The position numbers and the translations under genes were made by a program. This document shows positions 26,201-55,527 of a DNA stretch of 64,000 nucleotides, one piece after another. The stretch lies in assembly GCA_002104935.1 (NCBI GenBank), contig MCGT01000018.1, forward strand, positions 62,001-126,000, in the 5' to 3' direction. Origin of the DNA: Hesseltinella vesiculosa (Eukaryota; Mucoromycota; Mucoromycetes; Mucorales; Cunninghamellaceae). Each line of letters opens with the position of its first letter. The first letter of the stretch is position 1. The notes under the pieces are model-generated. The model saw only the letters and a list, made by a program, of their open reading frames with translations, was not told where the DNA came from and ran no database searches.

Positions 26201-27024
26201 TTATTTTTCCTACAAAAAAAAAAAAAAGTCAGGCACACATTCAACTTCCATCCAGCGCCCACCGCTTACAGGGATTTCAACTTCACCAGCATCGATGCTC
26301 TTGCAAAGGTCATAGGGCGATTGACCATCGACAGTGCAGCCGACAGAGTGGGCAGTACCCAAGATTTCCTTGACAGTGCCCGACAATTCGCGAGCATACG
26401 ACTTGTAGCGCATGGTGCGAGCAATTTCAATCACGTCGTCCAAGGTAATGTTGCCGCTGTGCTTGATGTTCTTTTCCTTCTTGCGGTCACGTGGGGGTTC
26501 CTTCAAGGCGCGGATCACCAACGACGAGGCCGAGGGCACAACCGACACTTGGGCTTGACGGTTTTGAATCGTCAATTGCACGGTCACGCGCAGACCCTTC
26601 CATTCCTTGGTGCCCTTGGCAATGTCTTCACCCACCTTCTTGGGAGACAACCCGAGTGGGCCAATCTTGGGAGCTTGGATAGAGAAAGAAGAAAAGAAAA
26701 AGAAATGAGACAAGATGAGCAACGGCGGCAAGAGGGTGTCGGAGTTGGAATTTGGGAAGGTCAAGAAGAAGAGGTGCAGCGGTGGCAATGAAGTGGGATG
26801 ATCAAGGATGATGGGGCTCACTGATCTCGCAGAGGGGCTGGGGGGTATTTACCGAGGGCACTGGAGGCACCAACTTCACCACCTGGAGATTGGCAGAGCG
26901 AAAGAAAAAAAAAGAGGATGTTAGGTCACATGCATGTCGATTCGTAGAGGGGATGGTTCGTGTGATTACCGGTGGCGCGGAGGTAGATGATCTTCACTTC
27001 GTTAGGGTCGAGCTTGGGAGGCAT
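26201..27024 (-). CDS. RPL12: 60S ribosomal protein L12 (uL11), copy A
   Basis: Exons complement(26201-26209, 26270-26673, 26853-26882, 26970-27024) give 165 aa, exactly the eukaryotic L12 length. A 5'-UTR intron lies at 27025-27093. Hallmarks: [41 protein letters not shown] (proline-glycine-rich rRNA-binding N-domain), [36 protein letters not shown] and [22 protein letters not shown]. uL11 forms the base of the ribosomal stalk at the GTPase centre. The last coding exon is only 9 nt (Glu-Lys-stop). The gene is about 99% identical to copy B at 41060-41886 across exons and introns, and the identity ends at the stop codon. Confidence 0.96.
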
Positions 27025-27535: not shown

Positions 27536-28180
27536 TTTTCTCTTGGTTAAAATCAAGCAAGGTTGAGACTGGCGGGCTTTAAAGAGTTGATAAATGGTGT
27601 CAGGCTCTTTTTTTTTATTAAAAACGCTTTCTTTTCTTTTTGTTCCTTTTTCCACTCAACTCTCCTCTTTTTTTAAAAGTTCAAAGGCAATCTACCGTTG
27701 TAATCGTGTGAATGTTTCCAGGAATGCTCGTCATTAATCTATTCATGACTTAGTTCTCATGAGATCAATGGTCTACCAGAAAACGGGCCTACCAGCTCTC
27801 CTGACGCGAGCCCTTTTGAAGACGTGCGGGCGAAGATGAAACACCTGTGGGTATCCTGGTCCATGGAAACATGAACTGTGGGAGCGTCCTGACGTAATGA
27901 GCATCAGTGTCAAAGTTACCCCTTGCATGCCACGCCGTTCGCAACCAAGATGTGAACGATGCGAAGGTGCTAAACTTGGTAATCATAAAAAATTGTGCTC
28001 AGTCAAAAAAATTATCACTAATCGATTCGCTCGCATTTATTTTTAGCTTGAAACTTTTAAAGGCGGAAACAATGAAGCTCAAGACTCGGCATTCGGCTTA
28101 ATGTAACTACGCAGCATGCTTATCTCTTGGTCGAACAAAGAGCCAGCTGTCATTGGAAAGGACGTTGTCCAAAAAAGGTA
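27536..28180. repeat. repeat R, also present beside the right-hand element
   Basis: This segment recurs in direct orientation at 45664-45943 and 46411-46756, with scattered substitutions; there it is split by an insertion containing host-gene fragments. Here it lies directly upstream of the endonuclease-like pseudogene, so the right-hand repeat is probably the remnant upstream region of a further copy of the element. No coding function is evident. Confidence 0.7.
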
Positions 28181-28639
28181 CCCACCCAAAAAAAAAAAAA
28201 AAAAAGGGAGTGACGGGACGCGCTCATCCACTACTTACCCTCTATTTTTCTATATCAGCTCCATGTCTGGTATTAAGCGAAAGATCAGCGACCAAGAAGA
28301 CAAGAGCCAAGAAAAACGCATGATCTGCGACGACCAAGACTCGCAAGGGCGTCGGGATTCGCAAGTTCTCCTTGACCGTTATCTGGGTGACTTGGATGAT
28401 TGCGGCCATCTTGCCATTCTCTTGGGTCAACCTTGCACTCCATTACCAGAAGGTTAAGACTTTGAGATGCATTGGAGGATTACTTGGACCAGTTTGATGA
28501 CGTGGTTGACCAGTTGATTGCTGCGGGAGATGAAGAAGCCACAGTCACGACCAAGAAAGACAAAGGCAAGGGCCGCGTTTTCTCTCTCAATCTTGATCCA
28601 GTCCACTTGCCCCGAATCTCCTCCACGCAGCCCTGCTCT

Positions 28640-29690
28640 TGTCAAGCATAGCACAAAAGATTCTTCTATCCAAGCACTAGCTGATCTAGGAAATTCTCCC
28701 CATCGACCAAAGGTGCCCCGTCTTGATATGGATGCCATCACCAATCACGTTGAGATCTGCACCAGCTCCAGCGCGTCCCCAGGATCCTCCGCCATGGACC
28801 TCCTTTTTGCCGATAACCTGAAGGAGCAGCGCATGAATCATTCTCTCAACGTTCTCGGGACATTCACCTTCTTGACCGATGCATTGGAATTGAGCTATGA
28901 AGGGTTTGCAGAAGCTCTCCATGGATTTTGACACCACAGGCAATCGCCGATCTCATGAATTTGCTCTAATAATCAAGTATGCATTGACTGACTTCCACAT
29001 GATCTGCCAAGCTCCTTCTGTTCAAGTGAAGCACGAGCGAACGGCATTTGTTGAGTTTGTGATTCCATATCTCAAGGCTTTGGACAAATGGACCGGCTTG
29101 GTGAAGATTGGATGGTAGTCCCACTTGCCCACCTCACCTTCACACAATCATTCATATCTAACTTTTTTTCTTTGCTCCTTGTTAGGTGTGAAAAAGACCT
29201 CAATGCGAACAAATTGATTGTGCTGAACAGAAATGATACGCTCAAGAACGCTGTCATTCGCAAGATCGATGCCCTGGGAACGCTGAATACTTCGACCACC
29301 ATGGAAGATTTGAGAGAAATCGCATCATGACTAGAACTAAAGAGTTGCCCTATTTTTTTTTTTTTCACGGCAACTTCGAAGAAAATGTAAAGCACGCCCA
29401 AGAAGACACCTTGAAGGTGATCGAGTGCAGCGCCATGGTCCTGAAAGCCGAAGCAAGCCAGCGTAAGGATGCCGCGTTCGATCTCTTCAAGCAATCCAAG
29501 GTCATGTCTCTCCTGTGTCATCAAGAACCAACAGACCCTTTGCTCGACCGGCATCTTGGAAAACAAGCGCTGGTCATTTTTCCAGCTTCGCTCTGCAATT
29601 CTGCCTGTCTCATGGGAGCAACGTTATCTATTGGTCAAAGTCTTTGAACTGCTCGCGACTTTGATGGTAAGCTGTCCTGTCATTAGTAAC
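28640..29690 (+). other. coding-like segment of unknown origin inside pseudogene copy A
   Basis: This stretch is absent from the intact paralogue. It shows broken coding potential in shifting frames: a piece with TALELSYEGFAEALHGF, then ERTAFVEFVIPYLKALDKW, a GT-AG-like intron near 29116-29185, ANKLIVLNRNDTLKNAV and EDTLKVIECSAMVLKAEASQ. The style (ERT-x-FVE-x-VIP) resembles repetitive mucoralean gene families of unknown function, so it may be a fragment of another gene or element captured here. Identity is not established. Confidence 0.4.
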
Positions 29691-30411
29691 AGTGCCTTAT
29701 TTTTTATTCCTAGTTTGGCGTAGCTCATTTTCATCGGTTTCTACATGGGCGATGCCATTCACTCTACCATTGGCTATAAACTTGGCATTGGTGCCTGTGC
29801 CACAGCCATGTTTGACCTCTTTTGGCTCTTGTCCATCGGTGTCAGTTCTCGTCAAATCACCCTCCATGCTTTGCCAGCGACCTCAGTGTACAGCGGTGGA
29901 CTTTAGGCGATGCACGTTGGATCACCTCGTACAAGATAAACGATGCTTACTGGATTGAACTTGGCCTTGCCACCCCCATCATAACCGTCCACGTCTGCAA
30001 CCGCCAGAAAAATGAAAGCCTGGCGGGACAAAAATCGAGTGCAATATAACCAAATGGCTGCTGGCCCTTTGATCGAATGCTAGCGGCATACTACGAAACA
30101 CTTGCCGAGCGCGTCACTGAGGGAGCTCCGGTTGACTATGTCATCAAGGTAAAAAGGATGTACCGCTTCAGCCGTTGCATACTGACTTGTTTCCTTAAAA
30201 TCGCGCAGAACCGTGGGTTCCCCTGTGACCGCTGCGGTGATTGGTTCATGACCACCGATCACCTTGCCCGACATGCTTTTATTGCACAGAGGTAAAACGA
30301 TTATGTCACCGGTGGATAGCTGGCAGAAAAATTCAAACTATATTTTTAGGGTCCTTGTCTCCCTTGCCCTATGCCCTACTGCTCCGAAATCTGTTCTTAC
30401 AAGTTTGCTCT

Positions 30412-31825
30412 TGTCATAGTTACCTTTTTCTGGAGTCCACCATTGCCCATGTTGTATTCAAGTTCCGCCCTTTCTTTTTTTTTTTCTTTATCTCTTTCGT
30501 TTCCGTCGACTCAACATCCAGCCTTGCAGGCACGGTGGATCTCCAATGTGCTACAAGGTCTACCTTCTTTCCTTGGATCCCCTTTCGGCAAGACCTTATT
30601 GTGGTGTCTTAGCTCCCATCTTGAAACCGGTCATGCCATTATCCGTTATGTTCCCTTCGCTCCGCTCTAGTCCTCTCTGGTCTGGCTCTAATCTTCCCTC
30701 CTGTCTCTCCCCATTGATTGATGCCTTTGACAAGCTTCCGCGGTTCTGGCGCTGTCTGGTGCTCCCTGCCCATGATTGGTCTGTCCTCCCCATGGAATTT
30801 CTCTGGTCATCATCGTCTCTCCCTGCTGATCTCCGCTCTATCGCACGAAGAGTTGCTAGCCTACCCATCGGCTACGCTTTCCGTGTGACAAACTCGGGGC
30901 CGTCTGGCTGCTCACTACAACTTCGGCCGTCTTGTGAATTGCCTATACGTCCTTATACCATCCGACGACTGTGGTCCGTCTTGCTTCCCCATTTTGGGCC
31001 CCCACACCAGGCTGTTGCGTCTTTTGTCACCATGTTCCCCGACCTACCTGACTGTGCGTTTGTGCCTCGTCCCCCCAGCCCTCCTATCCCGCCTACACTG
31101 TCTTGGATCGGCGCATCTTTATGGGCCTGCTTCTTTCCCCTCTTCCCTGCTCCACTACACTCCAATCAAGGACAATCCACCTGCTCCTCACACCTCGATA
31201 CGCCCTACCGTTTCACGCCCCGGGTGTGGAGTAATCTGCTGCCAAATGGGAATCCTTTTGGCGTACGTCTCTCCCTCATTCCTAACGCACTGTCTTGTTC
31301 CGGTTCCTAACTGGCAAGCTCACCTCACGCTCACTACTTTATCGCATCGTCCCCACCCTTGTGCCTTCGCCAAAATGTTCGATCTGCCGATACCATGACG
31401 AGTCGAGTGTCCACTTACTTTTCGCATGCCCTCTCAAGATGCAGGTATGGCGCCTGGCTTGGCAAAGACACTTTGCCACTCCTTTCGACTCAATACAGAA
31501 CGTCGTTTCCTCCTTCACATCCTGGTCTTGGCCTCCAATACGTCCTGGCACTCCGTCCCTCTCCGCACCTTTCGTCCTCGGCACCATTCTGACAGCCATC
31601 TGGTCAGCCCACTGGCGCCACGTTTACGATAACAGTCCCTTTTCCGCTCCCAATGTCCTTATTTCCGTGAACAAGTCCATCCAGTTCCTGTGTGATGAAT
31701 CCCGTCTCCTTTACCCCGCTACCCTCTAAACATATTCCTCGCTACCCTCTTTGCTTTGACCCCTTACATAGTTACGTCACTGCCAAATAAAATTTCTGAT
31801 CGCCTCGATCTCAAAAAAAAAAAAA
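30412..31825 (+). mobile_element. 5'-truncated LINE (non-LTR retrotransposon) 3' fragment
   Basis: The left boundary is where similarity to the intact paralogue stops (after GTTTGCTCT). The right end is a poly(A) tract of 13 at 31813-31825, preceded by AAATAAAATTTC. The frame at ~31295-31729 carries the reverse-transcriptase-associated zinc motif typical of LINE C-termini (C-x2-C ... H-x4-C, here CSICRYHDESSVHLLFAC) and ends at 31729; the upstream part (30546-31310) is in another frame, so one frameshift is present. The RT catalytic domain is missing. Insertion deleted roughly 200 bp of target, including the exon for zinc finger 3 of the pseudogene. Confidence 0.7.
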
Positions 31826-32008
31826 TATCTCTTTCTCATTTTTTTATTTTATTGTTCTTCAGCCTTGCAATGACCCATTACGCCCGTTCATTTGTCTTCA
31901 CGATAGGTGCCTCCGAACCTTTGCTCACAATTGGGAGCTGACTCAGCACAAGCGCGCCCACAGCAATGTAAAAAAATCGCCTCTTCTGGTTATACGCGCA
32001 ATCGTGTT

Positions 32009-32389
32009 CATTGATTATTTTCGTTTAGGAAAACCTCACAAATGTAACAAATGCCCAAAGGCTTTCAAGTGCAAGAGTGACCTGAACAAGCATATCGAAG
32101 CAATACACATCAACACTGATCGAGTAGGCAATTAAAGAGAAAGAAAAAGTAACCAGGTATCTGACCATTTTTTTTTTTATTTTACAGCTCCCATGCCCCA
32201 ATGAATGTGCTCGCACCTTCAAGACCAAGAAAACCCATTATGTCCACATGAAGAAGGCATGCCCCAACACCCATTAGAAATAAATAAATAATTTTTACTC
32301 ATGATTATGAAAATAGTAGTTTTAGTTTCTCCTTATGTCGTTTACGATATGTTGTGAGTGAAAAAAAGTCTGAGCCGCAGCAAATACCT
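32009..32389 (+). repeat. left arm of a ~0.35-kb inverted repeat (3' end of zinc-finger gene)
   Basis: Contains the last two zinc-finger exons of pseudogene copy A plus its 3' UTR. It is repeated in reverse orientation at 32835-33178, with a ~445-bp unique spacer between the arms. The spacer contains no gene but has a long A run at ~32744-32762. Confidence 0.85.
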
Positions 32390-32834: not shown

Positions 32835-33178
32835 TTTGCTGCGGCTCAGACTTTTTTTCACTCACAACATATCGTAAACGACATAAGGAGAAACTAAAAC
32901 TACTATTTTCATAATCATGAGTAAAAATTATTTATTTATTTCTAATGGGCGTTGGGGCATGCCTTCTTCATGTGGACATAATGGGTTTTCTTGGTCTTGA
33001 AGGTGCGAGCACATTCATTGGGGCATGGGAGCTGTAAAATAAAAAAAGATGGTCAGATACCTACTCGATCGGTGTTGGTATGTATTGCTTCGATATGCTT
33101 GCTCAGGTCACTCTTGCGCTTGAAAGCCTTTGGGCATTTGTCACGCTTGTGAGGTTTTTCCTAAAACAAAAATAATGA
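32835..33178 (-). repeat. right arm of the inverted repeat
   Basis: Reverse-complement counterpart of 32009-32389. It includes a third copy of the endonuclease-like gene's final two exons (see next entry) and matching 3'-UTR sequence, ending ~280 bp before the LAA1 start codon. Confidence 0.85.
32942..33160 (-). pseudogene. third, 3'-terminal fragment of the zinc-finger endonuclease-like gene
   Basis: Exon-like blocks complement(32942-33031) and complement(33065-33160) are 90 and 96 bp, exactly the sizes of exons 8 and 7 of the intact gene, with GT-AG boundaries kept. They encode fingers 5 and 6. The first zinc ligand of finger 5 is changed from Cys to Arg (HKRDKCPKAF), and no upstream exons follow, so this is a fragment. 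Confidence 0.8.
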
Positions 33179-33461
33179 ATGCATCAATTCTCACTTTCTC
33201 TTTTTTCCATTCACGGCACCTTCATGAACCAGTTTGCCAGTGCTAATCTTCGTGGTTTTTTTGTACCACGCATTTGCCGTGGTGCCAGCCAAACATCCAT
33301 TTCACAGGCCGCCGTTGCTGTGACCCTGCTCCTGGCAGAAAAAAACCCGCCCTTTCTTTTTTCTTCTTCTTTTCGTGCCTCATCCCTTTTTTATATTTTG
33401 TAACACTGTCCTTCTTCATTGTTTCAATCATCCATTGTGTAGGTGCTAAAACAACAGTAGA

Positions 33462-41059: not shown

Positions 41060-41886
41060 TTATTTTTCCTACAAAAAAAAAAAAAAAAAGTCAGGCACAC
41101 ATTCAACTTCCATCCAGCGCCCACCGCTTACAGGGATTTCAACTTCACCAGCATCGATGCTCTTGCAAAGGTCATAGGGCGATTGACCATCGACAGTGCA
41201 GCCGACAGAGTGGGCAGTACCCAAGATTTCCTTGACAGTGCCCGACAATTCACGAGCATACGACTTGTAGCGCATGGTGCGAGCAATTTCAATCACGTCG
41301 TCCAAGGTAATGTTGCCGCTGTGCTTGATGTTCTTTTCCTTCTTGCGGTCACGTGGGGGTTCCTTCAAGGCGCGGATCACCAACGACGAGGCCGAGGGCA
41401 CAACCGACACTTGGGCTTGACGGTTTTGAATCGTCAATTGCACGGTCACGCGCAGACCCTTCCATTCCTTGGTGCCCTTGGCAATGTCTTCACCCACCTT
41501 CTTGGGAGACAACCCGAGTGGGCCAATCTTGGGAGCTTGGATAGAGGAAGAAGAAAAGAAAAAGAAATGAGACAAGATGAGCAACGGCGGCAAGAGGGTG
41601 TCGGAGTTGGAATTTGGGAAGATCAAGAAGAAGAGGTGCAGCGGTGGCAATGAAGTGGGATGATCAAGGATGATGGGGCTCACTGATCTCGCAGAGGGGC
41701 TGGGGGGTATTTACCGAGGGCACTGGAGGCACCAACTTCACCACCTGGAGATTGGCAGAGCGAAAGAAAAAAAAAGAGGATGTTAGGTCACATGCATGTT
41801 GATTCGTAGAGGGGATGGTTCGTGTGATTACCGGTGGCACGGAGGTAGATAATCTTCACTTCGTTAGGGTCGAGCTTGGGAGGCAT
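41060..41886 (-). CDS. RPL12: 60S ribosomal protein L12 (uL11), copy B
   Basis: Exons complement(41060-41068, 41132-41535, 41715-41744, 41832-41886) encode the same 165-aa protein as copy A, with a 5'-UTR intron at 41887-41955. I count only about ten single-base differences from copy A over ~830 bp including introns, plus a slightly longer poly-T in the last intron. Similarity stops precisely at the stop codon (TTATTTTTCC on the + strand), so the two genes have different 3' UTRs. It is convergent with LAA1 (165 bp between stops) and divergent from the intact LAGLIDADG/zinc-finger gene, whose start is 644 bp away. Both copies appear functional. Confidence 0.96.
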
Positions 41887-41946
41887 CTGATAAATGGAGA
41901 TGGAGGGTGAGCACAGGCGGTGGATGGATGGAAGGATGGATGGATC

Positions 41947-42243
41947 AAAGCTTACGGTTTACTTGAAGGATAAAAAAAAAGAGGAAGAAGAAGAGGAGGC
42001 GGAAGAGGCGCTGGGCTTTTTTTTGTCGATGAACAAGCGGCGATTCTATTGGCTGGCAAGGTCCTTTTTTTCCCCTTTGCCAGCCCTCTTTGCTTGTCTC
42101 TTGCCAGCTTGCACGAGAGCGTGCTTCTTGGGGCAAGGTGGTAAGTGTTTCTAGTGCTCTGATGATTGTCCTGATGCGTCCCAGTTTGTGGACGGGAGCG
42201 TTGTCGTGATGTTGTCAGTGGCGGTTAATATCTGGCGATGACT
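41947..42243 (+). repeat. left arm of inverted repeat flanking the intact endonuclease-like gene
   Basis: This is the RPL12 copy B 5' region: the start of its 5'-UTR intron, the first untranslated exon and the promoter. Its reverse complement occurs at 45380-45664. The arms enclose the complete zinc-finger/LAGLIDADG gene. Identity is high (a few substitutions and a small indel). Confidence 0.85.
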
Positions 42244-42529
42244 GTGCAATTGGCTGAAGTGGAAGTCGATTTACACGCATTTATTTTTAGTTGCAACTTT
42301 TACCGGTGATATCCAACTAGAAGCATACAATGAAGCTCAAGACTTGGCACGATGAATAAATGCAACAATGCGGTGTGCTCTATTCTCTTGGTAAAACAAT
42401 GAGCCTGGCTGACAATGTCAAGGTCCATATCCAAAAATGGTACGCACCCAAAAAAAAAAAAAAAAAAAAAGAGGGCGCGCTGATCCACATTTTTCTTTCC
42501 TTTCATTATTTCACACAGTATTTACCAGT

Positions 42530-45263
42530 ATGTCTGGCGTTAAGCGAAAAGCTGGTGACCAAGAAGACAGCAGCCAAGCAAAACGCAAGATCTACGGCGA
42601 TGAAAGCACGCGACATGATTCGAAACCCCACCCTGACCATTATTGGCGTGACTCGCATGAACGTGACCTTCCAACCACACCTTTGGACCCACCTTGCACT
42701 CCATTGCCAGAGGTTCAAGGCTTTAAAAATGACTTGATGGGTTACATGTACCAATTTGATGACATGCTTGACCAATTGACTGCAGTGGGTGATGAAGAAG
42801 CAACGGCCAAGGCCAAGGAAGACAATCGCGAGGGCCATGCCACCTCTGCCAACCTGGAACGTCCTGTGCTTGTCCAGAATGATGTATCACATGATGCTGA
42901 ACCCACGATTAGCCATGAAGCCGTGGACAATAGTGCAACCTCCGCCTTGGAGGATGAGCTCGACGATATAGAGCTCGACCATGTCCCTTTGAATCAGCTT
43001 CTGCACGTTGAGCAAGTAGCTATGCCAGCTGGTTCCGTCGATGACTTTGGCATTGGCTCTTCTCATCAAGCCACTGCTCCCACGCCAGGTCTTGCTGTCC
43101 CTGGACCTACCTTGCCTGGTCATGTTGAGACCAACGAATATCCTCAAGAACCAGACTATGCCACAGTAGATTTTGATGCCATCCCAAATATTCGGAGCAA
43201 GCGCGTGACCAATTTGACCACACCCAACCAAGACCATGGCGGCTTGCAACGCCCCAACTTGCTTCCTATTGGCTTCATCGACACCAGTTCTTTAGTATCT
43301 CTCTTTTTCATCGGCTTCTACATGGGCGATGGCATCCACTCTACCACTGGCTTCAGACTTGGCATTCGCGTCCGAGCCACAGCCATGTTTGAGCTCTTTT
43401 GGCTCTTGTCAAATATCGGCGTCTGTTCTCTCGTAATCACCCTCCATGCTTTGACAAAGACCTCAGTGTACAACGGTGGGACTCTAGGCGGTGCTAGCTG
43501 GGTGATCACCGACAACGTAAGCGATACTGCATGGAATGAACTTGGTCTCCCCTCGTCCAAAATTCACGACACAAACATTGTCCTTGCCGATCGCTTCTGG
43601 CCAGTCCCTGTGAATCCAAGTGATGTCGAAAAGGAGTGCTTTGTGGTGTTTGTGCTTGGATACGTGTCGGCCGATGGAGCTGTAGAACATGCCAGCTGGA
43701 AGGAAGGGCTGGTGGGCTTGACGTCCGTGTCAATCACGGCTCGCGACAAGGAAATCCTGCCCTGGATCCGAGACCGCTGGGTGGCTCTTGGTGGAACTGT
43801 CAGCGCGATCAAGATTGACCATCGCAAACGCTGGCGATTCCGAATGTATGCCCAGCCTGTAAACCGACAACTGTGGTCCCTTGGTCTAGCTGCGATCCGT
43901 CGTGAAGGTATATTTGTACCAGCAAAGTTGCAAATGTTGGAAGCATTGCTCGACAGCCCTAATCTACCAGAAACGATGCAGAGTGTCCAGTACCAGCATG
44001 TCCCGTTTTCCAAGTTTGCCGGTGGATCCAATGATCCCCGCTACTCAGTGCTGGCCCAGTAAGTTTGCCGATGAAACGAAAGAGAGGTAGTCTGTAGCTC
44101 ATGCTGACTACCTGTTTTTTTTTCTGTTTGCTATAGGGACATGTACACATTGAGCATTTTCTCCGTGCGACACTTTTACGACGCCTTGGGCTTGGGCAGC
44201 ATTGTCTCAACGATGGACATTGACTTGAAGGCCATGCTGGAGGCTCTTGCGAGCATTACTGGCCGCCGGCCCTTTGATCGAATGCTGGCGGCATACTACG
44301 AAACACTTGTCCTGCGCGTTACTGAGGGAGCCCCGGTTGACTATGTCATCAAGGTAAGAAGGGCATGCTGCTTCTGCCGTTGCATACTGACTTGTTTCCT
44401 TAAAATCGTGCAGAACCGCGGGTTCCCCTGCGACCGCTGCGGTGAATGGTTCATGACCACCGACCACCTTGCCCGACATGCGTTTTATTGCACAGAGGTA
44501 AAACGATGATGTCACCGGTGGATAACTGGCAGTAAAGTTCAAACTACATTTTTAGGGTCCTGGTCTCCCTTGCCCTTTGCCCTACTGCTCCGAAATCTGT
44601 TCTTGCAAGTTTGCTCTGAACTTGCACATCAAAAACTTCCATGTGCCCAACGTAACTGTCCACGCTGCTCAGCTGACAATTTCTTACCGGGCTTTTTATT
44701 ATGAATGCTGCAGGCCGACCACCCATTCAAGTGTCCTCGATGTGAACGATATTTCTATCGTGAACATGAAATTGTCCAACACTTGTTTGACCAGCACAAC
44801 GTCAAAGTAAGTTTTTTTTTTCTTTTTCGATCTCTGAGATGCTCTTTTTTTGTAGCCTTGCCATGACCCGTCCCGCCCGTTCGTTTGTCATCACGATGGT
44901 TGCCTCCGAACCTTTGCTCACAAATGGGAGCTGACTCAGCACAAGCGCGCCCACAGCAGCGTAAAAAATCGCCTCTTCAGGTGATACGCGCAATCGTGCT
45001 CATAATTATTTTCGTTTTAGGAAAAAACTCACAAATGTGACAAATGCCCGAAGTCTTTCAAGCGCAGGAGTGACCTGAACAAGCATATCGAAGCAATACA
45101 CACCAACATTGATCGAGTAGGCAAAAAAAAAGAGAAAGTAACCAGATATCTGACCATCTTTTTTATTCTACAGCTCCCTTGCCCCAATGAATGTGGTCGC
45201 ACCTTCAAGACCAAGAAAACCCTTTATGTCCACATGAAGAAGGCATGCCCGAACGCCCATTAA
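42530..45263 (+). CDS. LAGLIDADG homing-endonuclease-like protein with six C-terminal zinc fingers (HO/WHO-like)
   Basis: Exons 42530-44058, 44137-44353, 44414-44497, 44556-44651, 44714-44806, 44856-44960, 45021-45116 and 45174-45263 give an intact 769-aa product. Residues 1-250 are acidic and low-complexity with a basic start (MSGVKRKAGDQED). Two LAGLIDADG helices follow: LFFIGFYMGDG (catalytic-type Asp D267) and FVLGYVSADG (D382), separated by ~115 residues as in monomeric double-motif enzymes, each followed by a plausible alpha-beta fold. Then come six fingers, one per exon after exon 2: C2HC (CDRCGEWF..), C-x4-C H-x4-H (CPLPYC..), CPRCERYF.., C-x4-C (CHHDGC..), CDKCPKSF.. and a C-x3-C/H-x4-C finger. 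A LAGLIDADG-zinc-finger fusion is characteristic of yeast HO; DNA binding plus site-specific cleavage is inferred. I see no intein splicing motifs. Confidence 0.82.
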
Positions 45264-45379
45264 CATACATATATTTTACTCATGATTATGAAATAGTTTT
45301 CTCCTGTTGTCGTTTACGTTATAGCAGGCAGACCAATCGACGAAAAAATAAATGAGAAGTGCTTCATATTTTTTTATCA

Positions 45380-45664
45380 GCTGCAGCCATCGCCAGATAT
45401 TAACCGCCACTGACAACATCACGACAACGCTCCCGTCCACAACTGGGACGCATCAGGACAATCATCAGAGCACTAGAAACACTTACCACCTTGCCCCAAG
45501 AAGCACGCTCTCGTGCAAGCTGGCAAGAGACAAGCAAAGAGGGCTGGCAAAGGGGAAAAAAAGGACCTTGCCAGCCAATAGAATCGCCGCTTGTTCATCG
45601 ACAAAAAAAAGCTCAGCGCCTCTTCTGCCTCCTCTTCTTCTTCCTTCAAGTAAACCGTAAGCTT
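45380..45664 (-). repeat. right arm of inverted repeat (inverted RPL12 promoter/5' UTR)
   Basis: Reverse complement of 41947-42243. It carries the RPL12 untranslated first exon and ends within the first bases of the 5'-UTR intron (GTAAGCTT), so no RPL12 coding sequence is present. It sits ~115 bp downstream of the endonuclease-like gene's stop codon. Confidence 0.85.
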
Positions 45665-45943
45665 TTCTCTTGGTTAAAATCAAGCAAGGTTGAGACTGGC
45701 GGGCTTTAAAGAGTTGATAAATGGTGTCAGGCTCTTTTTTTTTATTAAAAACGCTTTCTTTTCTTTTTGTTCCTTTTTCCACTCAACTCTCCTCTTTTTT
45801 TAAAAGTTCAAAGGCAATCTACCGTTGTAATCGTGTGAATGTTTCCAGGAATGCTCGTCATTAATCTATTCATGACTTGTTCTCATGAGATCAATGGTCT
45901 ACCAGAAAACGGGCCTACCAGCTCTCCTGACGCGAACCCTTTT
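45664..45943. repeat. repeat R, left half
   Basis: Direct-orientation match to 27536-27830 beside copy A, starting at TTCTCTTGGTTAAAATC and ending at GCGAACCCTTTT. The last ~55 bp (CTCATGAGATCAAT...) are repeated at 46412-46460, flanking the insertion of host-gene fragments. Confidence 0.8.
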
Positions 45944-46200
45944 GATGGCCCTACGACACCAAGTCGATGATAAAGTACAATACAGAGATATCGGTTCTAT
46001 CAACGACATGACCCGTCAGGCTATTTCTGGGAAATCACGCAATGGTGGTCTGCACATCGGACACATGGAGCGCAACATCCTTGTCGCTGTAGGTACGCAA
46101 CAAAGAGCTGGAATATTTCTACAGCATTGACAAGACGCAGATACCCTGTTGTAACACGTGTGGTCTTATTGCGATGGTCAACAAAATGGATGCTTGTTCT
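45944..46200 (+). pseudogene. fragment of an RNA polymerase second-largest subunit (RPB2-like) gene
   Basis: The + frame reads RHQVDDKVQYRDIGSIND, MTRQAISGKSRNGGLHIGHMERN, then after a frame change [18 protein letters not shown]. These correspond to the C-terminal RPB2-family blocks (R-H-x-V-D-D-K, L-T-R-Q-P, G-R-S-R-D-G-G-L-x-x-G-E-M-E-R-D) and its zinc site. The Glu and Asp of GEMERD are replaced (GHMERN), and no start or rest of the gene is present. It is a captured, decayed fragment within repeat R. Confidence 0.7.
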
Positions 46201-46261
46201 CACGAGAGAGAGAACGTATCTTGTCACCACCATCTGATTGTATGCGTGTCAATGTTGCGTG

Positions 46262-46412
46262 CTCCAAATCAGAACCGAATTGGGCAAAGGCAGCGGCTTC
46301 ACGGTATTGAGCCAAGAAAAGCTTCAAGGAACCGGCAACTTGCTTCATGGCCATGGTTTGGGCGGCGGAACCGACACGGGAAACGGACAAACGGATGTTG
46401 ATGGAGGGACAG
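46262..46412 (-). pseudogene. fragment of mitochondrial ATP synthase alpha subunit gene (ATP1)
   Basis: The minus frame reads [21 protein letters not shown] and [21 protein letters not shown], then GSDL, which is the highly conserved alpha-subunit segment after the nucleotide-binding domain. Similarity ends at GSDL. About 50 codons only, with no flanking exons, so this is a captured piece in the opposite orientation to the neighbouring RPB2-like fragment. Confidence 0.8.
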
Positions 46413-46756
46413 TTCTCATGAGATCAATAGTCTACCAGCTCTCCTGACGCGAACCCTTTTAGACATGCGGACGAAGCAGAAACACCTGTGGGTATCCTGG
46501 ACCATGGAAACATGACCTGTGGGAGCACCCTGACGTAATGAACCTCAGTGTTAAATTTACCCCTTGCATGTCACGCCGTTCGCAACCAAGCTGTGATCGA
46601 TGCAAAGGTGTTAAACAAGGTACTAATAAAAAACTGTGCTCAGTCAAAAAAATTATCACTAATCAGTTCCCTCGCATTTATTTTACTTGAAACTTCTGAA
46701 GGCGGTACAAAGCGCCAGCTGTCTTTGGAAAGGACGTTGTCCAAAAAAGGTAGTGT
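46411..46756. repeat. repeat R, right half
   Basis: Direct-orientation match to ~27760-28180, with more substitutions and small deletions than the left half. It ends at GTCCAAAAAAGGTA, where the copy A equivalent continues into the endonuclease-like pseudogene. Here no such gene follows. Confidence 0.75.
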
Positions 46757-47798
46757 GGAGGCGCTGATTTCGATCGACATTCATAGTTTAGCTGGCGGAT
46801 GGGAGGTGTCAAAACTAAAGATGTAGGAAGTTGACTGGACAACGATTGCTAATTGGCTTAATTTTTTCAGGACCAAAGCGTATGATAAGGGCCTGCTCCT
46901 ATGCAACATTTTGCACCAACGCATTGATCCAAAGATGAGTATGAACGGTTTCCTTTTTTTCAGAAGCAAAGGGGATCCGCCTTGCCGGTATGGCCATTTT
47001 TTTTTCTAAAGCCTAACTTTGCCCAATCCGCCTTTCATTTGGTACACAAGTTATATCGATGGAAATATTTGATATCATCAAAGAATACACTTCACTATTT
47101 TGCGATCAACCCGCCCATGGCTATTCCAGATGGTGCTCAGTGAACGATTTGTCGTTTTTGAATCAACGCCCGACAAAAATGCAAAAAAAACTACGTATTA
47201 GACGATGTCTACCATGGTATCTATTAAACCGAGGCAAAGGATTACCATATATGTAAGTGACTAATATATCTATTCGTAGACGATTTACTGGGGTACATTT
47301 GTAACCGTATGCCCAAATACAAAGACTCGATAACGACTTGAAAAAAAAATGGAAAAATGGCTACGAAATACTGATGAGGCCGCGCAAGATAATTTTTTTA
47401 GCAGGCAATACAGCGCTTGATATGCTTCAAAGTTTATCAACTGTCCACGATCAAGTTTCAAATAATTGACAGCAAAGCCAGCTTGCGGGTCTCTGCATGT
47501 TGTTGGAGGCTTGTCATCAAACGTTTCATAAGCTCCAGCAAACAGATCAAGCTCCTCTTCCATGGACATGTATGAAGCAGTTTCAACGCTGTCGGAGTCG
47601 CTGATAGCGTTGGTAGAAGCACGGAGGTTCCAAATAGAAGTCATAGTACATTATGTAGGAAAAATTCGAAATAAAATATGCAGTGTTCACGATTGGTTTT
47701 AATTTCACAAAAAAAAAAAAAATTAGGGCCATCATCTTTTGATCCAGCGTGTTCAGGAAATAGTCAATTGGACTTGACGACGTCTTATTTTTTTTGGC
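46757..47798. other. region without a recognisable gene
   Basis: A minus-strand frame at 47285-47644 (SDSVETASYMSMEEELDLFAG in part) and short + frames at 46840-47250 look faintly coding, but I cannot join them into a gene or name a family. They may be remnants of a decayed element. Confidence 0.3.
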
Positions 47799-53563: not shown

Positions 53564-55527
53564 ATGAATCAACAACAACAGCCAATGGATGGTTCTGAAG
53601 AACAGGTAAATGAACATTGATTTTTTAAAAAATGCCACAAATTGATAAGACCACATTTTCTCAAACATGTTACTTCATTCAGCTGGAGACCTTTTATGGG
53701 CGATTGCTTGGTCCAAAATACCCTGATAACATTGCTGCTATCAACAGCTGCCGTGCCTTGTGTGCTGAATATGGTTTCACTGTCAAACAAGAAGCAAGTA
53801 CACACCGCGTAAGTTTATCATTCGCTGGAAAAGCGTAGGAAGATAAAGCTGGCCATCTGACAACTTTTTCTTTATTGAAGAACATCTACGTCTATTGTTC
53901 GCGTGAAGGTCTGCCCGATTCGGTACGCAACCCGAAACAAGTGCGACAGCGAAAGCGAGACTCCAAACGATGTGATTGCCGCTGGCGAGTAGTGCTGTTT
54001 GAACGAGGTGGTCAGTGGGAATTCCGAAAGTCACTCAATCCTGAAGCCGCCAACCACAACCACCCTCTGATGCGCCCTGATGAAATCGAAAAAACTTGGC
54101 CACCCGACATGGTCAACATGATTATCGACTTGGCTCGACAGAAATTCTCTACACAGGACATCCGACACCGCGTGCGATCCCAGTTCCCGGGGGTCACTTG
54201 GAATGAACGCCGCTTTTACAACCGCCTGTCGGACGAGCGTCAACGCATTCGGTTTCGACAAGCCTCGAACCGTGGGCGCGAGCTTACGGGAATGTGGGCC
54301 AAGATCTGCTCCATAGCAGCCGGTAACGAAGAAATCAGCAAGTACGTCGAGGCTGTCACCGCCCGTCTTTTGGATGCCTTGTGCCAGGCTACTGAAACCG
54401 ACCCTTCCACCCTGACCATTCCGGAAGAACTCATGATTGAAGACGATGCGCCCATGGACCTATCTTCGTCAGCCGGCGCTGGCGAGCCATCTACGACACA
54501 TCACCCTACTCCTCCACATGCCGACCCACACATCTCCACCTCATCCACGCGATTCATCGTCTCTGGTCCTGGCCACCCTTCCACTTCTACCGTGACACCA
54601 GCTCCTGCACCTTCCAATATTATTTTGGTAGGCAAAAGATCCAGAAAAGGCAAGGAGCCCGACCAAGGCAGCAATGGCATCCCAGAGCCACCCAAAGGCT
54701 ACGCAACCGTGGTCATTCCTCAGCACCACTATTTCACAAAAGTCCACACCCACCGTGTCGGTTGCACGCCCTTTTATGTGCCTCGTTTGCTCCGCGTCAA
54801 GATGCCTGAAGAGGACGAAACCGATGAAGACAAGGCCCAACTAGCTGCCCAACTAGCTGGTCGACAGCCGCCCAACTTTACGAGCGCACACGATTTGATT
54901 GAACTACCTCCTAAAAAAGTTGCTCGCCGAGACAACCCCGCCCCAGTACCGGACCCAGCCCTCAGCACACTCGATTCCACGCATGCTGGTCATTTCCCAG
55001 CCATAGCTCCTCGTCCCATGATTCGGCCAGCGCCAGCCATTGCACCTGCGCCTGCCGCCGCATCTGCCTCCTCTGCTGCTTCAGCCTTGGTAGCCCACCT
55101 GTCCTCCTTAGCTCCCTCCTCGCAGCCGCAGCAACCCTTTCAACCCACCTTCACCGCTGTGGCCCAAGCCAGCACCTCATCCCCATCACAACAACAAAAT
55201 CAGCAGCAAAGCCAGCAGCAAAATCCCTTTGTTCATTTCCAACCTTCAACGTTGCCTTTGCCACCTCCACCCAACAATGCCCATTTTTCTGAATTGACCT
55301 TCCAATTCGACAACCCAGGTAATGCCACCAACCATGATACCACTGAATCAGCCCAGGACAGCTCAGAAGCCAACCAAGGCCGGTCTGGCCCAACCATCCA
55401 CCCAGCATTGCAATCGAACCCAATGTCTCTTGAACGCTCGGCCCATCCATCGTCCGACTTCCATCCCGATAGCCCGGATCACAAGCATCGCCATCGCCAG
55501 CCCTCAAACGCCTCCACCTCCCCATGA
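53564..55527 (+). CDS. FAR1-type DNA-binding domain protein
   Basis: Exons 53564-53605, 53683-53808 and 53881-55527 give 604 aa. Residues ~15-110 resemble the FAR1/WRKY-GCM1 zinc domain: LETFYGRLLGPKYPDNIAAINSCRALCAEYGFTVKQ, IYVYCSREG, KRDSKRCDCRWRVVLFERGGQWEFRK and AANHNHPL, giving C-x(n)-C-x-C ... H-x-H ligands. A helical segment follows (MVNMIIDLARQKFSTQDIRHRV..). The C-terminal ~380 residues are Pro/Ser/Gln/Ala-rich with His-poor linkers. FAR1 domains come from Mutator-like transposases; no transposase catalytic domain is present here, so it looks like a domesticated transcription-factor-type protein. Target genes unknown. Confidence 0.78.

Follow-up and report, generated by a model that had tools for sequence, protein, structure and literature searches.

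WHO elements are known from Torulaspora and Lachancea. Coughlan et al. 2020 (PMC7282813) describe WHO proteins as intein-like; they have a finger domain of the CXXC type and lack exteins. Their genes adjoin FBA1, where intact and decayed copies cluster together with 3' fragments of FBA1, and parts of other genes are present in some of the insertions. In the homing model given there, the fragment beyond the endonuclease gene serves as a second region of homology. Here we describe a WHO-like arrangement at another essential gene, RPL12, in the early-diverging fungus Hesseltinella vesiculosa. In a stretch of 64,000 nucleotides (nt) from this genome (the window; contig MCGT01000018.1, positions 62,001 to 126,000), an intact gene that we call copy B encodes a putative LAGLIDADG domain and six zinc fingers, and it lies beside a complete RPL12 (Table 1). 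We read this locus as a convergent, RPL12-anchored homing-type element that carries a freestanding LAGLIDADG endonuclease, with a probability of roughly one half.

An endonuclease-like gene beside RPL12

The splice sites of copy B (GT...AG) were picked by eye, and the spliced frame stays open for 769 codons. The two LAGLIDADG-type motifs, FIGFYMGDG (D267) and VLGYVSADG (D382), lie 115 residues apart, and both retain the acidic residue. The six fingers follow the pattern C-x(2-4)-C...H...H/C, and we class them as C2H2 from Pfam and this pattern. The gene is freestanding, with no detectable intein part. The fusion of a LAGLIDADG domain to C2H2 fingers is likely real and unusual. An initial annotation had described this gene with its motifs and fingers, and the spliced frame and the finger pattern bear it out. 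The complete RPL12 that it placed head-to-head with the gene (RPL12-B) is also there, with matches to Ribosomal_L11_N and Ribosomal_L11 (E about 1e-20). So is a second pair 15 kb away: RPL12-A and copy A, a decayed endonuclease gene, are offset by about 14.86 kb to the left of RPL12-B and copy B.

Table 1. Features of the RPL12 and endonuclease cluster (positions in the window; aa, amino acids)
Feature	Position	Strand	Remarks
RPL12-A	26201-27024	-	complete; protein identical to RPL12-B
Decayed endonuclease gene, copy A	28263-32277	+	stops, missing parts, insertions
Third, inverted 3' fragment of endonuclease gene	32835-33181	-	
RPL12-B	41060-41886	-	complete, 165 aa; three introns inside coding part; head-to-head with copy B
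RPL12 5' region P	41947-42244	-	upstream of RPL12-B, between RPL12-B and copy B
Intact LAGLIDADG-C2H2 gene, copy B	42530-45263	+	8 exons, seven introns, 769 aa
Copy B exons 1-4	42530-44058, 44137-44353, 44414-44497, 44556-44651	+	
Copy B exons 5-8	44714-44806, 44856-44960, 45021-45116, 45174-45263	+	
LAGLIDADG-type domain, as modelled	43283-43993	+	residues 252-488
Six C2H2/C2HC zinc fingers	44414-45263	+	one per exon over six exons; residues ~588-768
Inverted copy of P	45384-45665	+	downstream of copy B
Repeat X	45663-46752	+	interrupted by captured gene fragments
Repeat X, part X1	45663-45945		99.3% to 27536-27819
Repeat X, part	46432-46705		88% to 27789-28066
Repeat X, part	46707-46752		96% to 28135-28180

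The organization matches that of WHO clusters in several ways: a freestanding gene for an endonuclease with zinc fingers, an intact essential host gene next to it, intact and decayed copies close together, duplicated host sequence, and captured fragments of other genes. The components are different: no Hint domain was found, the fingers are C2H2 instead of CXXC, the host gene is RPL12 instead of FBA1, and the gene has seven introns. Because a WHO-like strategy would here have started from a different protein, convergence is more likely than descent.

Like HO from Saccharomyces, copy B has a LAGLIDADG domain followed by zinc fingers, and no exteins. Unlike HO, its protein scores on neither Hom_end_hint nor Hom_end. 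(The 769-aa protein had no match to Hint or Hom_end at E up to 1; a control with the HO sequence gave 6.7e-46 for Hom_end_hint and 4.4e-45 for Hom_end.) A direct comparison with HO found no similarity (best BLASTP E 0.26), and the CXXC fingers of the Ash1/GATA-like type were not found at the C-terminus of copy B, where the fingers are C2H2. We therefore reject membership in the HO family. Of the initial proposal of an HO/WHO-like element without intein splicing motifs, the WHO-like organization and the lack of those motifs stand, and the family relationship does not. Copy B also resembles I-DmoI, PI-PfuI, and PI-SceI in its two motifs and its modelled fold. Those enzymes come from genes within introns or inteins and are not known to carry C2H2 fingers.

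At E up to 10, we found no homologue either of residues 228-600 (7996 candidates scored, those sharing the most words) or of the 282-aa domain (2856 candidates), in searches that require shared 5-residue words and may miss remote relatives. The protein database does include early-diverging fungi (it has RPL12 from Syncephalastrum, Umbelopsis, and Basidiobolus). Among viral contigs, one stretch matches a pattern, and no relative was found. Neither LAGLIDADG_3 nor Hom_end nor LAGLIDADG_1 found a match in the fungus's own genome; LAGLIDADG_3 misses copy B as well, so distant paralogues are possible. Copy B's protein had no match among NCBIfam profiles and only weak matches of unknown function in PHROGs (best E 0.072). 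In the PDB, the 510 aa of exon 1 had a single, unrelated match (E 0.74). No donor of the zinc fingers could be named: the best match outside contig C10 is just 35% identical (on contig C48). In the literature, as represented by titles and the openings of abstracts with few subscription journals covered, we recognised no precedent besides WHO and HO.

If our reading is correct, copy B would encode a LAGLIDADG endonuclease, its six C2H2 fingers would add DNA-binding specificity, and the gene would be part of a selfish element of the homing type with its anchor at RPL12. The protein would cut within or near RPL12. Repair of the break from an element-bearing copy would spread the endonuclease gene and homogenise RPL12, while the adjoining intact RPL12 would keep the host alive. 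Spent copies of the element would decay. The evidence for anchoring at RPL12 is suggestive, and we infer that RPL12 is the target of the putative endonuclease. The sequences make homing into RPL12 a good hypothesis. RPL12-B may be a replacement copy that the element carries, or it may be a paralogue of the host. We propose more tentatively that a WHO-type homing element arose independently in an early-diverging fungus, as a new LAGLIDADG-C2H2 fusion with RPL12 as its homing site. It would maintain a functional RPL12 next to itself and cause the RPL12 copies to evolve in concert.

The putative LAGLIDADG domain

LAGLIDADG endonucleases cleave both DNA strands at specific sites, and they have two acidic motifs, roughly 90-150 aa apart, in a double alpha-beta-beta-alpha-beta-beta-alpha fold. 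The spacing is 95-113 in four archaeal reference proteins, as compared to 115 aa in copy B. A motif pattern, which was composed after both motifs in copy B had been seen, has two matches in 50,039 aa of open reading frames (ORFs) from the window, and both are within copy B. Shuffled ORFs (5,003,900 aa) gave 22 single matches and no pairs at a spacing of 70-190 aa. The Pfam family LAGLIDADG_3 matches copy B with 14.8 bits, which is under the curated cut-off (22.5). When the domain was modelled from an alignment seeded with archaeal LAGLIDADG proteins, the model was confident and its fold resembled that of I-DmoI, PI-PfuI, and PI-SceI. WhiA is among its structural matches. (Our reference set has 18 members, and 13 of these entered the alignment used for folding. 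Another set, built by iteration, had drifted to 3 members and was not used.) The motif pair, the sub-threshold Pfam match, and the archaeal-seeded model, which are not independent proof, make it likely that this is a LAGLIDADG domain.

If the motifs arose by chance, then copy B would be an ordinary zinc-finger gene. Several results lean in that direction, and thereby away from an endonuclease. LAGLIDADG_3 reaches just E = 0.31 against the whole protein. For the N-terminal half, the motif is the only support: 331 of 1000 shuffles that kept it scored as well. The single sequence failed to fold (predicted local distance difference test, pLDDT, of 33), and the confident model depends on an alignment of our own choice. 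In a profile-profile comparison, the score of the full domain was reached by 0 of 300 ordinary shuffles and 0 of 53 window ORFs, but 66 of 300 motif-keeping shuffles equalled it. (The N-terminal half alone scored 23.4, under the best ordinary shuffle at 24.8.) Because the motif-keeping shuffles match the score, we dropped this comparison as support for the domain. Still, chance does not account well for two motifs at the canonical spacing, which no shuffle reproduced, for the signal in the second half, which goes beyond its motif in the motif-keeping test, or for the confident alignment-based model. We consider chance motifs to be very improbable.

The domain could also have been domesticated. 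In WhiA, a LAGLIDADG fold is joined to another DNA-binding domain, and copy B, with its modelled fold and its fingers, would have the same combination. WhiA is described as a bacterial transcription regulator that has lost cleavage (PMC7282813). Copy B's product might similarly be a regulator whose LAGLIDADG part no longer cuts, or a programmed cutter such as HO. The six fingers, the spliceosomal introns, the intact frame, and the presence of WhiA among the structural matches all fit with this. But both acidic motif residues are retained, and the decayed sister copies and the lack of detected homologues are less expected of a conserved regulator than of a selfish gene. Overall, domestication seems improbable.

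Probable exchange among the RPL12 and endonuclease copies

A search of the genome found three copies of RPL12: RPL12-A, RPL12-B, and a third on contig C34. All three encode the same 165-aa protein. (Among the 120 proteins listed of 6065, the most similar, at 90-91%, are from Syncephalastrum, Basidiobolus, Umbelopsis, Lunasporangiospora, and Mortierella, which by itself points to an early-diverging fungus, probably in the Mucoromycota.) Indels aside, the copies are 94-99% identical in introns 1 and 2. Past the last donor site, only 27 of 60 sites in the C34 copy agree with A and B, although all three have an identical last exon (9 bases). Across 9.9 kb around the C34 copy, the RPL12 block is common with the window, and other matches are under 50 bp. 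The similar introns, together with the divergence past the last donor, suggest that a tract was converted between older loci, rather than that a complete gene was freshly inserted.

For comparison, two control pairs (RPL23 and RPS5) have exons that are about 90-94% alike and introns that have diverged. For RPL23, blastn gave no alignment of the introns. For RPS5, 36 of 53 aligned intron bases match (0.58 of columns, as compared to 0.51 when shuffled; 4 of 200 shuffles were as high). ATP1 was excluded as a control because the alignable part of its copies is mostly one long frame. Separately, the RPS5 copies (C10:17401-17823 and C13:162592-163038) share 110 identical bases in a row, with exons otherwise about 90% alike; this run is possibly a small conversion tract.

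The endonuclease copies also show a gradient. Identity between copies A and B rises from 71% at the 5' end to 80% in the LAGLIDADG part and then to 87-92% in the 3' parts. Synonymous divergence (dS) is 0.47 in the 5' part, then 0.29 and 0.17, and 0.10 in the fingers; a more recent exchange of the 3' part would give such a pattern. Judging from these identities and from X1, parts of the cluster differ in age. The inverted copy of P is a recent duplicate of the RPL12 promoter. It matches P at 279 of 282 aligned bases (with 16 gap columns) and ends within the RPL12 5' leader, and no RPL12 coding sequence was found after it.

Could copy B be a bystander? The gene might sit next to RPL12 by chance and have been duplicated with it around one host gene. 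Any target would then be elsewhere, and the likeness of the RPL12 copies would reflect ordinary duplication and conversion. Indeed, a single long host gene separates the two pairs, which is the layout expected from a local segmental duplication, and the three RPL12 proteins are identical. Other housekeeping genes are also multi-copy (ATP1 is in three places, and RPL23 and RPS5 in at least two each), and the WHO model does not account for an inverted copy of the promoter. However, the RPL12 introns are far more alike than those of the control pairs. Also, the exchanges in the cluster are of different ages (compare the P copy and X1 to the 5' part of the gene), so a single duplication fails as an explanation. 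We view the bystander scenario as less likely than our main reading.

As with the results given above against the domain itself, several observations weigh against homing at RPL12. We found no target site in this analysis. The C34 copy has no endonuclease gene beside it, so either the element never reached this RPL12 or this copy is resistant. The intron controls are a small sample of two gene pairs, and the similarity of the RPL12 copies may be due to ordinary gene conversion or recent duplication. As compared to the WHO elements, the host fragment is an inverted 5' promoter piece and not a 3' coding homology arm; being inverted, it would not serve as a WHO-type arm. It could reflect a different course of events or be a by-product of fold-back repair. 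Finally, the ratio of nonsynonymous (dN) to synonymous divergence between copies A and B is only mildly below 1 (0.63, from dN of 115.2/830.2 sites and dS of 46.8/225.8 sites, with 354 of 769 codons aligned), and 23 of 236 intron sites are different, or about the same as in the finger exons. Between the two copies, dS exceeds dN (Fisher p 0.012, on rounded counts). Under neutral drift with an assumed 0.04-0.07 changes per site, 3.3-5.8 stops would be expected in copy B and none are observed, although copy B was chosen for its open frame. The evidence for constraint on copy B is only modest because copy A is decaying.

Captured fragments and broader meaning

The sequence upstream of the endonuclease gene recurs, whole or in part, at about 27.4, 28.0, 42.3, and 46.7 kb. 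The third, inverted fragment takes part in a perfect inverted repeat of 213 nt (32835-33047 with 32172-32384); such perfect repeats can also arise as errors of assembly. Within 45879-46461, between two parts of repeat X, there is an Rpb2-like fragment (+ strand, E 2.2e-5); the same segment holds a 148-bp ATP1 fragment (- strand) that is 96.6% identical to ATP1 on contig C7. This captured segment is bounded at both ends by a repeat of about 50-65 nt, and copy A has one such repeat without the segment. Copy A is split by an insertion (30411-31852) that ends in a poly-A stretch. By eye, the insertion resembles the 3' part of a retrotransposon without long terminal repeats (non-LTR), and its 296-aa ORF has no Pfam match. 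In copy A, the 5' and LAGLIDADG parts are also separated by about 1.1 kb (28575-29723), which includes an ORF-like stretch, as compared to about 0.46 kb in copy B. A scan of the window for RNA families gave no match. A long ORF at 53839-55527 resembles, by eye, a FAR1-type DNA-binding protein.

If the RPL12 element is a second origin, built on different fingers and located at a different essential host gene, this would suggest that the WHO-type class is a repeatable evolutionary solution. It would also supply a natural fusion of a meganuclease with C2H2 fingers, an architecture that is otherwise known as engineered.
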